From Lachnospiraceae bacterium (lineage in GTDB: Bacteria; Bacillota; Clostridia; Lachnospirales; Lachnospiraceae): a stretch of DNA of 6,277 bases. The stretch spans positions 1 through 6,277 of the forward strand of contig DNJW01000018.1 of assembly GCA_003488965.1 (NCBI GenBank). Direction: 5' to 3'. The translations under genes were made by a program, and so were the position numbers. Numbering within the stretch: the first letter of the stretch is position 1; each line of letters opens with the position of its first letter. Positions 2,293 through 6,077 of the stretch are shown here, one piece after another. A model generated the notes under the pieces. The model searched no databases. It saw only the letters and a list, made by a program, of their open reading frames with translations, and was not told the origin of the DNA.

Positions 2293-4176
2293 TTACTTGA
2301 TTTTATAGGAAAGTTTGCAGATTTTTCTGTCATAGGTAAGAAGTCCGTTGACCTCTTCTTCCACATCGGACAGCTGGGTATAAACGGCGCCGCATAATCC
2401 CTTTTTAATAAGCGGTTTTAAGCCGGTTTGGATGAGTTTCCGGTACGCTTCGGAGAATTCTTCTTTGGTGGCAAATTTCTTATAACCGTAGATGCGTTCT
2501 ACGCTGGAGTGTCCTTTTATGCGGCAAGTGTAGCCGCCGTATTCGGAGATAACAAAGGCGCGGGAATCTGCAGCAACGCTTAACTTGCGGAAATAGTTGT
2601 GGACGCTTTTGAAGTCCCCGCCGCCTTGGTCGAACCAGCCGCTTGTCTGGTCGATGGGACGGGTGGGGTCTTTTTTCCAGATGAGTTCCGTAATATGGTT
2701 GGCATCAAATTGGCCCCAGCCTTCATTGAAAGGAACCCAGACAGCAATGGAGGGAACATTGTATAGATAGTCAATCGTATCGAGACATTCTTTTGTCCAT
2801 TCTTTCCGCCCTTCCTTGGAGGAACGGCCGAACAGCTTGTACCGGCTGTCTTTTAGATGACCGGAGATATTGGGAAAAAGAGTAGGGAAATAGCAGACAA
2901 TGGGAAGGGAGTAGGTAGAGCCTCCGCTTACCATATCCTGCCATACAATCATTCCCAGACGGTCGCAGTGGTAATACCAGCGCGCCGCTTCTATTTTTAT
3001 ATGCTTCCGTATCATATTAAAACCAAGTTCCTTCATGGAGCGGATGTCATAAATCAGCGCCTGGTCGGAAGGGGCGGTATAAAGGCCGTCCGGCCAATAG
3101 CCCTGGTCAAGCACTCCGTGGAGAAAGAGAGGGCTGTGGTTCAGGCAGAAACGCAGGATGCCGTTTCCGTCCGGTTCCATAGTGAACGAGCGCATGGCAA
3201 AATAGCTTTCCACACTATCGCTGCCAAACTGTATTTTCAGGGTATATAAAAAGGGATGTTCCGGTGTCCATGGATATACTTTGCTGATATTTGCGCGGAC
3301 AGAGAGGTTATATCCATCTGGATTTCTTTCAGAGGACTGATGTTGGCTGGAAGACGCTAAGCTTGTATCTTCTGTCCGGGATAGGACGGGCTGTTTATAG
3401 GCAGTATCAAAAATGCATTCGTTGCCGGCAAAAATCTGTATTTTTACAGGTGCGCTTCCTGCAGTCAGCATACGGATATGAAGTTCTTTCCTGTCATAAT
3501 CGGGAGTCAGGTAGAGTTTTTGGATATAATGTTCGGGAACCCATTCCATCCATACAGTCTGCCATATACCGCTTTGCGCAGTATAAAACATTCCGCCTCT
3601 TTTTAAAGTCTGTTTTCCTCTGGTGTGGAATGAGGTGTCGCTTACGTCTTGTACACATACGGACAGGGAATTCTCGCCTTCTTGTAAAAAAGAGGTAATA
3701 TCTGCTTCGAAAGGCAGATAACCGCCCGTATGGGTGCATACCATATGACCGTTCAGATAGACGCGGGCTGTCTGGTCTACCGCACCGAAATGAAGAAGCA
3801 GCCTTTTGGAGGAAGGGGAACCGGCATGGACGGAAGAAAGGCGGGCATATTCATCGGCTGAAATAGAAATACTGCGTTCATACCAAAGATATTCGTCCGG
3901 CTGCAGCTGCCTTTCCACACCTGACAGACTGCTTTCCGGGGAAAAAGGAACAAGAATTTTTCCGTCATATACGGAAGGGATTTGGGAAGATGCGGTAATG
4001 GCATAATTCCAATATCCGTTTAAAATAATATAATTATCCCTTTGCAGCTGGGGACGGGGATATTCTTCCAATACATGTTCCGAATCCAGCCCCTCCCCCC
4101 AGACCGTGGTAAGCCTGGCCAATACATCATTTTCATGTGACTTGTTAATACTGCGCAAACAATCCAAGATATCCAT
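2293..4176 (-). CDS. Glycoside hydrolase family 2 protein (beta-galactosidase/beta-glucuronidase-like), 627 aa
   Basis: This is a retaining beta-glycosidase of GH2, the family of LacZ and GusA; the sugar specificity cannot be told from sequence alone. An N-terminal jelly-roll sugar-binding domain covers about 47-215 (HFGAVDQTARVYLNG at 129-143, then GGYLPFEADIT). An immunoglobulin-like domain follows to about 335, with a serine-rich stretch near 272-282, then a TIM barrel to the end. The predicted acid/base is E485 in VPFNEGWGQ and the nucleophile E545 in VISEYGGY. Their spacing of 60 residues is shorter than in LacZ or GusA. Length is near GusA and well below LacZ, so LacZ-type C-terminal domains are absent. 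There is no signal peptide, so it should act in the cytoplasm on imported glycosides. I chose the ATG at 4176 because GGGGG lies 4 nt upstream; an in-frame ATG at 4197 would add 7 residues but lacks a ribosome binding site. No transporter or regulator gene is adjacent. Confidence 0.9.
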   Translation of the reverse strand: MDILDCLRSINKSHENDVLARLTTVWGEGLDSEHVLEEYPRPQLQRDNYIILNGYWNYAITASSQIPSVYDGKILVPFSPESSLSGVERQLQPDEYLWYERSISISADEYARLSSVHAGSPSSKRLLLHFGAVDQTARVYLNGHMVCTHTGGYLPFEADITSFLQEGENSLSVCVQDVSDTSFHTRGKQTLKRGGMFYTAQSGIWQTVWMEWVPEHYIQKLYLTPDYDRKELHIRMLTAGSAPVKIQIFAGNECIFDTAYKQPVLSRTEDTSLASSSQHQSSERNPDGYNLSVRANISKVYPWTPEHPFLYTLKIQFGSDSVESYFAMRSFTMEPDGNGILRFCLNHSPLFLHGVLDQGYWPDGLYTAPSDQALIYDIRSMKELGFNMIRKHIKIEAARWYYHCDRLGMIVWQDMVSGGSTYSLPIVCYFPTLFPNISGHLKDSRYKLFGRSSKEGRKEWTKECLDTIDYLYNVPSIAVWVPFNEGWGQFDANHITELIWKKDPTRPIDQTSGWFDQGGGDFKSVHNYFRKLSVAADSRAFVISEYGGYTCRIKGHSSVERIYGYKKFATKEEFSEAYRKLIQTGLKPLIKKGLCGAVYTQLSDVEEEVNGLLTYDRKICKLSYKIK

Positions 4177-4191
4177 ATTACCCCCATTTCC

Positions 4192-4197
4192 TTTCAT
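4192..4197. repeat. Left TTTCAT copy, possible target-site duplication
   Basis: This is the same 6-mer as at 4406-4411, in direct orientation, and each copy is separated by 2 nt from the outer stem of the inverted-repeat element. A 6-bp match could arise by chance, but the symmetric placement favours a duplication made on insertion. Confidence 0.4.
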
Positions 4198-4405
4198 TCA
4201 TTGCGAAACCAATAAACTTGCTGAATATTCTGCCAATCTATTTTATGAAAATCCTTTTTGTGCCATGGAACTGAGACCAAAACATCATGGAGGTGCAATC
4301 GCCGACATGATGTTGCATTACTGGGCTCAGTGGAATGTTTGGCACATTTGGATTTTCATAAAATAGATTGGCAGAATATTCTCTCAGCTTAAAGTTCCGC
4401 AATCG
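4198..4405. mobile_element. MITE-like nested inverted-repeat element in the GH2 leader
   Basis: The core is a perfect 32-bp inverted repeat, 4223-4254 against 4350-4381. Inside it further stems nest in register: 4259-4265 with 4340-4346 (7 bp), 4270-4275 with 4326-4331 (6 bp) and 4282-4289 with 4306-4313 (8 bp), leaving a 16-nt loop. Outside, ATTGCGAAAC (4200-4209) pairs 9/10 with 4394-4403. TTTCAT occurs on both sides (4192-4197 and 4406-4411), each 2 nt from the outer stem, and may be a target-site duplication. No protein is encoded. Non-coding DNA, terminal inverted repeats and flanking repeats are what miniature inverted-repeat elements show. A fixed regulatory hairpin is the alternative. 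I do not recognise the family, and the exact ends are uncertain because the outermost 2 nt do not match. Confidence 0.6.
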
Positions 4406-4411
4406 TTTCAT
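4406..4411. repeat. Right TTTCAT copy, possible target-site duplication
   Basis: This is the partner of the TTTCAT at 4192-4197. Removing the element and one copy would leave a normal short leader between the GH2 promoter and its ribosome binding site, which supports the insertion reading. Confidence 0.4.
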
Positions 4412-4424
4412 GTGCCATAATCTT

Positions 4425-4452
4425 ATTATAAGCAAAATAAGTGGGGTGTCAA
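4425..4452 (-). promoter_or_regulatory. Consensus sigma-A promoter for the GH2 gene
   Basis: Reading the minus strand, a perfect TTGACA (4452-4447) and a perfect TATAAT (4430-4425) are 16 nt apart. Transcription should start near 4418, giving a leader of about 240 nt that contains the whole inverted-repeat element before the GH2 start. A match at 12/12 positions makes this the strongest promoter in the window. It lies just downstream of the terminator of the 54-aa gene, so the GH2 gene is likely its own transcription unit. No obvious operator such as a cre box overlaps it. Confidence 0.8.
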
Positions 4453-4503
4453 ATAAGATGTTGATAAAAATGATAGAATATAAAAAATGCCCTTAAAGAG
4501 AAA

Positions 4504-5031: not shown

Positions 5032-5388
5032 ATGAAATATATGAAACAATTTGGAATTATAATAGCTATGACTTTAGCAGCAGAACTTTTGGAAAAGCTT
5101 CTTCCTCTGCCGGTTCCGGCAAGCATATATGGATTGGGGATTATGCTGGCTTTTCTGGTCAGCGGTTTTTTGAAGGTAGAAGCGGTAAAGGAAAGTGCGG
5201 ATTTTCTTATTGAAATCATGCCGCTGATGTTTATTCCGGCGGCGGCAGGGCTTATAGATTCGTATCATGGGCTGGACGGGATTCTCATTCCGGCGGCAGT
5301 GACGGTAGCCGTAACGACAGTGGCTGTAATGGCAGTGACAGGACGGTGTGCCCAAAGGATTATTAGGAAAGGACAAAACGGAAAATGA
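5032..5388 (+). CDS. lrgA: CidA/LrgA-family membrane protein, 118 aa
   Basis: This is a small integral membrane protein of the CidA/LrgA holin-like family. It acts with LrgB, in roles described as murein hydrolase/lysis control and, in Bacillus subtilis (PftAB) and Streptococcus mutans, as pyruvate transport. About four hydrophobic segments are seen (roughly 7-24, 29-47, 58-76, 84-104), followed by a basic tail. Family motifs are PVPASIYGLGIMLAFL (27-42) and MPLMFIPAAAGLID (63-76). Length is typical. GGAGG (5022-5026) lies 5 nt before the ATG, which fixes the start over the in-frame ATG at 5041. Its stop overlaps the lrgB start by 4 nt (ATGA), so the two are translationally coupled. Which of the two family roles applies here cannot be told from sequence. 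Confidence 0.93.
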   Translation: MKYMKQFGIIIAMTLAAELLEKLLPLPVPASIYGLGIMLAFLVSGFLKVEAVKESADFLIEIMPLMFIPAAAGLIDSYHGLDGILIPAAVTVAVTTVAVMAVTGRCAQRIIRKGQNGK

Positions 5389-6077
5389 AAGAACTTTTCG
5401 GAAACTCTTTGTTTTTTGGAGTAGCGGTCAGCGTGGCAGGGTATGAAATCGGTCTGATGCTGAAAAAAAAGCTGAAAAATCCGTTATGCAATCCTCTTTT
5501 GATATCGATTGCGTTTGTAATTCTTGTACTGAATGTTTTTGGGATAGAGTACAGCGATTATTATGAAGGGGGAAAATATCTCAGTTATCTTCTGACACCG
5601 GCTACGGTATGTCTGGCAGTACCTCTTTACCAGAAGCTGGAATTGCTGAAAAGGAACTGGACGGCTGTGATTGCCGCTATTTGTGCAGGTGTTTTTTCCA
5701 GTCTGGTTACTGTTTTTCTGATGGCAAAAATGTTTGGGTTCACTCATGAACAGTATGTGACTTTTCTGCCCAAATCAATTACAACGGCTATCGGGATGGG
5801 AGTATCCGAAAAGCTGGGCGGTATAGTGACGGTAACCGTAATCGTGATTATCATTACCGGAATTCTGGGAAATGTAATTGCGGAAAGTGTATTTAAGCTG
5901 TTCCGCATTGAGGAACCTATTGCCAAGGGGCTTGCTCTGGGAACCTCGTCCCATGCCATTGGGACGGCCAAAGCAATGGAGCTGGGAGAAATAGAAGGGG
6001 CAATGAGCAGCCTTTCCATTGTAGTTTCAGGAATATTGACTGTGATTGCCGCTTCGGTATTCGCCCGGCTGTTATAG
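5385..6077 (+). CDS. lrgB: LrgB/CidB-family membrane protein, 230 aa
   Basis: This is the polytopic inner-membrane partner of LrgA. The family is linked to control of autolysis and, in the PftAB/LrgAB cases studied, to facilitated pyruvate transport. It is hydrophobic throughout, with several predicted membrane segments. Conserved motifs are LLTPATVCLAVPLY (69-82), LPKSITTAIGMGVSEKLGG (128-146) and GTSSHAIGTAKAMELGEIEG (186-205). Length is normal and the frame is intact. The start overlaps the lrgA stop (ATGA, 5385-5388), with AGGAAAGGA (5365-5373) as a weak, distant ribosome binding site, which suggests coupling to lrgA translation. The stop at 6075-6077 directly abuts the stop of the convergent OadG-like gene, and no plus-strand terminator is seen in between. 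Confidence 0.95.
   Translation: MKELFGNSLFFGVAVSVAGYEIGLMLKKKLKNPLCNPLLISIAFVILVLNVFGIEYSDYYEGGKYLSYLLTPATVCLAVPLYQKLELLKRNWTAVIAAICAGVFSSLVTVFLMAKMFGFTHEQYVTFLPKSITTAIGMGVSEKLGGIVTVTVIVIIITGILGNVIAESVFKLFRIEEPIAKGLALGTSSHAIGTAKAMELGEIEGAMSSLSIVVSGILTVIAASVFARLL

Follow-up and report, generated by a model that had tools for sequence, protein, structure and literature searches.

The locus and its features

The window, which is the whole stretch of 6,277 nucleotides analysed here, contains a palindromic element that sits between a promoter-like site matching the consensus at all 12 positions and a GH2 family gene (Table 1). The ends of the window copy, TCA...TTC, are a decayed form of TAG...CTA, as the alignment with 33 other copies indicates. 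The first ATG of the GH2 open reading frame (4197) lies inside the element, and since the closest relatives of the protein align only from residue ~5-8, the gene more likely starts at an ATG near 4176. On the side of the element away from GH2, genes of the LrgA and LrgB families lie next to each other (5032-5388 and 5385-6077). An Rrf2-type regulator (31-465) opens the window and is followed by a PEP-utilising enzyme (557-2170), whose domains we take to be those of PTS enzyme I. The genome of origin (G000) is assembled in 440 contigs and is 65% complete.

Table 1. Features of the element and its surroundings, in positions of the window.
Feature	Position	Strand	Remarks
GH2 family gene (predicted sugar enzyme)	2293..4197	-	
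Whole element	4194..4409	+	216 bp; ends placed from 33 other aligned copies
Left terminal inverted repeat TCATTCATTGCGAAAC	4194..4209	+	family form TAGnnAATTGCGAAAC
Left outer arm, perfect 32-bp inverted repeat	4223..4254	+	
Apical core	4259..4346	+	model R2, 81.7 bits
GGA, left side of internal loop	4267..4269	+	G 98%, G 89%, A 98% of 63 distinct rows
A of conserved A.G mismatch	4276..4276	+	A 100% of 63 distinct rows
Innermost hairpin	4281..4314	+	RNA fold and DNA fold
G of conserved A.G mismatch	4325..4325	+	G 98% of 63 distinct rows
GGA, right side of internal loop	4332..4334	+	G 97%, G 67%, A 98% of 63 distinct rows
Right outer arm, perfect 32-bp inverted repeat	4350..4381	+	
Right terminal inverted repeat, decayed	4394..4409	-	
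Promoter-like site TTGACA-16-TATAAT	4425..4452	-	12/12 match; directly upstream of element; also in locus L058

A non-coding palindrome

An earlier note, made from the letters of this DNA, had described a perfect 32-bp inverted repeat, nested inner stems and an outer stem (ATTGCGAAAC/GTTCCGCAAT). The repeat is exact, and both the inner stems and the outer stem are present in the folded region. In 200 shuffles of positions 4101-4500 the longest inverted repeat did not exceed 10 bp. The RNA fold of 4180-4425 has an energy of -95.6 kcal/mol (z -10.3), and the DNA fold of 4194-4409 has a z of -10.8. The palindrome is therefore real and far beyond chance.

The note had also called the element non-coding and self-complementary, and this agrees with the single open reading frame that covers most of it (4106-4366), which has no Pfam match. 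We also rejected a coding reading, for which frames on either strand contain EYSDNIFHENP, since indels break the frames and the tested frame had no Pfam match. No Rfam family reached its threshold in the window, and in six related loci the core had no match at a curated score. A mir-4716 match overlapping a hairpin of genome G146 was below the curated Rfam score and was taken as chance. At locus L325 (352-483), ~0.6 kb from a core copy, there is a sub-threshold match to Clostridiales-1 RNA (34 bits against a gathering score of 48).

Dispersed copies with shared ends

The genome of origin gave 51 BLAST matches to the element, fragments and one reverse self-match included, and 15 copies besides that of the window are near full length (157-204 bp, 78-82% identity by BLAST). 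Among 61 genomes, that is, our own and 60 relatives, six gave BLAST matches to the element, and all six belong to the same genus. Eight of the 16 genomes of this genus contain the terminal repeat YAGnnAATTGCGAAA, with 74 sites in the genome of origin against 0 for the reversed control. On the scale of the family, 56 of 299 genomes, one per genus, have the 16-bp terminal repeat; genome G215 has 98 sites, and the reversed control gave 9 sites altogether. The ends TAGGTAATTGCGAAAC are the terminal repeat of a miniature inverted-repeat transposable element (MITE), and they are common to elements of 65-344 bp with differing interiors.

Accordingly, the element is short (216 bp), multi-copy and non-coding and has terminal inverted repeats, as MITEs do. 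The earlier note had proposed a search for dispersed copies that share their ends, and such copies were found, with differing flanks. Its MITE-like reading is upheld by these copies, by target duplications, by an element-free locus and by a candidate parent transposase, and only its 6-bp target duplication fell away. We consider the MITE identity well established.

The copies vary in their apex, which gains and loses whole hairpins: one copy (L022) has no innermost hairpin, and another (L030, ~1035-1130) has several added nested hairpins in the apical region. Genome G146 carries GC-rich versions of the element (L326, L336, L344, L350) whose arms are about half identical between copies, and the palindrome of L326 extends over roughly 300 nt. 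At L053, L038, L325 and L463, two core copies lie in opposite orientation with their starts ~240-440 bp apart. In the genome of origin, many ends of contigs (C11, C16, C51, C92 and others) lie within ~150 bp of a terminal repeat, and the hairpins therefore probably break the assembly. Longer spacings between ends in this genome (C30, C200, C239, C295) were rejected as transposase copies, being assembly gaps of N, with additional nested hairpins in C239.

Target duplications and an element-free site

In the earlier note, TTTCAT on both flanks was read as a possible 6-bp target duplication. If so, this would be an unrelated MITE moved by another transposase. The hexamer is literally present on both sides (4192-4197 and 4406-4411), but both hexamers straddle the ends placed by homology (4194 and 4409), and copies with intact ends have duplications of 11-12 bp outside TAG and CTA. 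Two AT-rich flanks of 20 nt share a 6-mer in 8% of simulations. We consider the TTTCAT reading very improbable.

Flank matches scoring at least 8 were found in 6 of 34 copies, the 34 including two that lacked a right flank; among mismatched pairs of flanks the rate is 0.27%. Three duplications of 11-12 bp abut TAG and CTA (AACGTACATTA, AATTAATCACAT and TTGAAyCTCAT), and three further ones are 8-10 bp long and lie at most 3 nt from the ends. Related elements in genome G012 have the duplications AACTTTGCAAA and ATAAATTTAyAG, and the G215 copies have duplications of 10-13 bp. The target duplication of the family is 11-12 bp long, outside TAG...CTA, as seen in copies with intact ends, although the window copy has no recognisable target duplication at its ends. 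For the core copies outside G215, 15 of 23 have no direct repeat of at least 9 bp in their flanks, and 7 have flank matches of 9-10 bp, mostly at uneven distances. One core copy (L329, genome G237) is flanked, at distances of 52 and 41 nt, by the 11-bp direct repeat TTTCTCCATAC. This genome is without an exact terminal repeat, and the 11-bp repeat may be a target duplication belonging to other ends.

A site without the element was found at locus L058 (JAETTM010000042.1). There, local alignments show that the orthologous GH2 gene keeps its coding start and, with 31 of 37 positions matching in the region of TTGACA and TATAAT, its promoter; the intervening leader is free of the element. As this leader differs from that of the window, the locus is an element-free site but not a base-exact empty one. 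The earlier note would have taken its reading as refuted if the element occurred only upstream of orthologous GH2 genes, were single-copy in the genome and had no empty site in any strain; none of this held, the element-free site being that of another species rather than another strain.

A candidate transposase

In genome G086, an exact MITE end belongs to an insertion sequence of 1.76 kb whose transposase is broken. Insertion sequences of ~1.75 kb in related genera have one 16-bp end and duplications of 11-12 bp in common with the MITE. Relatives of this transposase occur in 22 of the 299 family genomes (at 1e-20), and 16 of these also have the terminal repeat; the co-occurrence (Fisher p 1e-8) is in part inherent in the count, to which the ends of the insertion sequence itself contribute. 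Both ends, with at most 2 mismatches, were found 1.3-1.85 kb apart in 10 of 25 loci, and four of these ten have exact duplications of 11-12 bp (L268, L271, L273 and L274). In three of the four, one end is identical to the MITE end and the second is a variant, TAGGCGTTTGCGAAAC or similar. The transposase with matching terminal repeats that the earlier note suggested looking for has thus a candidate, a predicted autonomous partner with one identical end and one variant end.

Two intact transposases, one of 501 aa (L273) and one of 485 aa, match the DUF772 domain above its cut-off. Against the IS1182 model NF033551 they score 77.9 and 76.4 bits, below the cut-off of 270, and by this measure they are not placed within the IS1182 family. 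The partner transposase also has a weak DDE similarity. Judged from sequence, the DUF772/IS1182-like transposase is likely the mover in trans. Cross-mobilisation is inferred, and several points speak against it. Besides the low IS1182 score and the variant second end, the genus yielded no more than a transposase remnant, in 1 of its 16 genomes (the genome of origin being 65% complete), and of the 56 genomes of the family that have the terminal repeat, 40 gave no transposase match at 1e-20.

Other parents were considered and rejected. Among the PF01609 transposases found in the genus, 30 loci out of a longer list of matches were scanned, and the terminal repeat was present in none of these 30 with up to 1 mismatch allowed. 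An end pair 3.3 kb apart in genome G227 turned out to be two separate small elements. IS200/IS605 and REP-type elements make no target duplication and use a tyrosine transposase; identity with these was rejected because target duplications are present and the partner has a DUF772 transposase.

The apical core

The hairpin described by model R1 was found in at least 11 of the 299 family genomes, and its 87-nt apex (model R2) in at least 15, each of another genus, with weak matches in G030 and G185. Across the class, R2 was found in at least 3 of 391 genomes, all three of the same family; the number of candidates scored per genome was capped. The earlier note had recognised the nested stems of the interior, but not their covariation or their sharing with other genera.

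The core alignment has 63 distinct rows, and as they were fitted to the model they lean towards it. In these rows, 97.7% of cells pair. Every one of the 27 core pairs varies on both sides: 523 cells are double-changed, 14 changed on one side only and 39 do not pair. The covariation of the core is 0.819, against 0.240 when shuffled and at most 0.127 when slid. Among the unpaired bases, A18 is fixed in 100% of rows and G9, A11, G81 and A91 in 98%, and their conservation across genera far exceeds that of the paired bases beside them. Within the genus, however, conservation is lower for the unpaired positions taken together (0.78) than for the paired positions (0.88), which counts against the explanation given below; only certain unpaired positions are fixed.

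The arms change together

In an alignment of 32 copies made without reference to structure, two-sided changes occur at 42 of the 56 predicted pairs. Its 1776 cells comprise 1711 Watson-Crick, 22 G-T (1.2%), 17 A-C and 26 other combinations, and folding on the opposite strand gave 32 G-T and 19 A-C. As a control we used 30 RNase P RNAs of the same family, of which only 20 pairs were recovered and one sequence lay near a contig end; here, 131 of 600 cells were G-T (22%) and 18 were A-C. The ratio of two-sided to other changes is 2.2 in the element and 0.44 in the control. This paucity of G-U, which is unlike RNase P RNA, points to copying or folding at the level of DNA.

In 47 copies, outer arms pair at 0.95 when both come from the same copy and at 0.42 when they come from different copies. 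The corresponding values are 0.96 and 0.17 in genome G203 and 0.94 and 0.40 in G135, and the lowest within-copy values belong to single copies in G230 (0.74) and G027 (0.78). In G215, which has three near-identical copies, pairing within and between copies is equal. Three copies are orthologous between two genomes, with flanks 88-91% identical, one pair being identified by one flank only. In these three orthologous pairs, 7 of 185 base pairs switched from Watson-Crick to Watson-Crick on both sides, 12 involve a non-Watson-Crick state, and 1 went from A.A to T.T. By a rough estimate, independent change at ~10% divergence would give about 0.6 doubles. The seven double changes fit template switching, and strong selection is also possible.

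It may be supposed that the element carries no function, that template switching alone matches the arms, and that the core is conserved only because the copies of a selfish MITE share a recent ancestor. In some genomes the arms are nearly unrelated between copies and yet self-complementary, and the mismatches resemble ordinary mutations, as would be expected in that case. However, copying alone is insufficient for the fixed unpaired bases of the core, which need selection, their conservation across genera being far above that of nearby paired bases. We consider an element devoid of function quite unlikely.

A second alternative is a structured RNA that rides on the MITE and acts at the level of the transcript (as a leader, or in processing or stability), so that selection on RNA keeps the pairing. 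The covariation of every core pair, the fixed loop bases and the position of the window copy downstream of a consensus promoter all agree with it. On alignments fitted to the model, G-T exceeds A-C (33 to 10 in the 47-copy arms and 18 to 6 in the core rows), which leaves room for selection at the RNA level. On the model-free alignment, however, G-T is about as rare as A-C and far below the RNase P control. Also, neither strand folds consistently better, the + strand fold being stabler in 11 of 32 copies. As to orientation, the core strand is opposite to the genes in 17 of 19 copies between tandem genes of this genus (p 0.0007, with a crude gene caller), and this too speaks for an RNA, but between tandem genes of other genera the count is 9 against 7, and the bias within the genus could reflect the direction of transcription or equally that of replication. 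Considering both sides, we regard the RNA as unlikely to account for the pairing.

Interpretation and relation to known systems

The explanation that we consider probable is a 216-bp palindromic MITE with many dispersed copies, likely moved in trans by an IS1182-like transposase, with its arms kept matched by copying of DNA. In this explanation, the transposase of the ~1.75 kb insertion sequences would move the MITE in trans. After insertion, the arms would stay matched mainly because one arm is copied from the other, presumably through template switching at the hairpin during replication. Selection would keep the fixed unpaired positions of the core, and some protein may recognise the folded DNA. 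Since the window element lies downstream of a consensus promoter and ahead of the start codon of GH2, we predict that it is transcribed as the 5' leader of the GH2 gene and folds in the mRNA. More tentatively, the apical core may be a fold at the DNA level, a hairpin found across the family whose GGA/GGA loop, A.G mismatch and bulge would allow it to be recognised in single-stranded, folded DNA; the arms would then rewrite each other, any pairing sequence would suffice, and the core would spread by borrowed transposon ends.

Bacterial MITEs derived from insertion sequences are described as short, non-coding and multi-copy, with terminal inverted repeats, target duplications and a predicted stem-loop transcript (PMC10969869), and all of these traits are common to this element. 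Unlike in those MITEs, only the terminal repeat matches the candidate parent, and the interior is a hairpin core found across genera with arms that evolve in concert. MITEs of the IS1182 type are on record as the ISMac2 MITEs of Methanosarcina (PMC3852290). The candidate mover resembles the IS1182 family in its DUF772 domain and in C-terminal similarity to the IS1182 transposase model, but differs in scoring below the curated cut-off and in its duplications of 11-12 bp. IS1272, a relative of IS1182, is described as replacing inverted repeats and leaving no duplications (PMC5678879).

For the core, integron attC sites offer an analogy, and only that. They are described as having little sequence conservation and a stem-loop with few important extrahelical bases, and as being recombined as folded single-stranded DNA (PMC2727003). 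Low sequence conservation, a stem-loop and key unpaired bases may be likened to the core, although the core, unlike attC, lies inside an element with transposon ends. Template switching, in which both sides of a stem change in one step and covariation arises without G-U intermediates, has been described for RNA genes (PMC8794818); here, by contrast, a mobile palindrome is concerned, whose arms are nearly unrelated between copies. The bcr1 element of Bacillus cereus is dispersed and mobile-like and has a strong secondary structure. It is similar to this element by description only, and the hosts differ. In the literature searched, mostly non-subscription papers, we found no report of MITEs of this kind in Lachnospiraceae.

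In summary, we consider the element a new MITE family with a mover of known type and an unusual hairpin that evolves in concert. What stands out is this hairpin, which is poor in G-U and whose function is putative. Double-sided covariation is usually strong evidence of a functional RNA. Here, covariation is extreme and poor in G-U in a natural family of many copies, with little strand bias on the model-free alignment. Accordingly, the family would test how far template switching or folding at the DNA level mimics the covariation of RNA. It also links MITEs across many genera of the family to a candidate transposase, and its hairpins would explain breaks in the assemblies.
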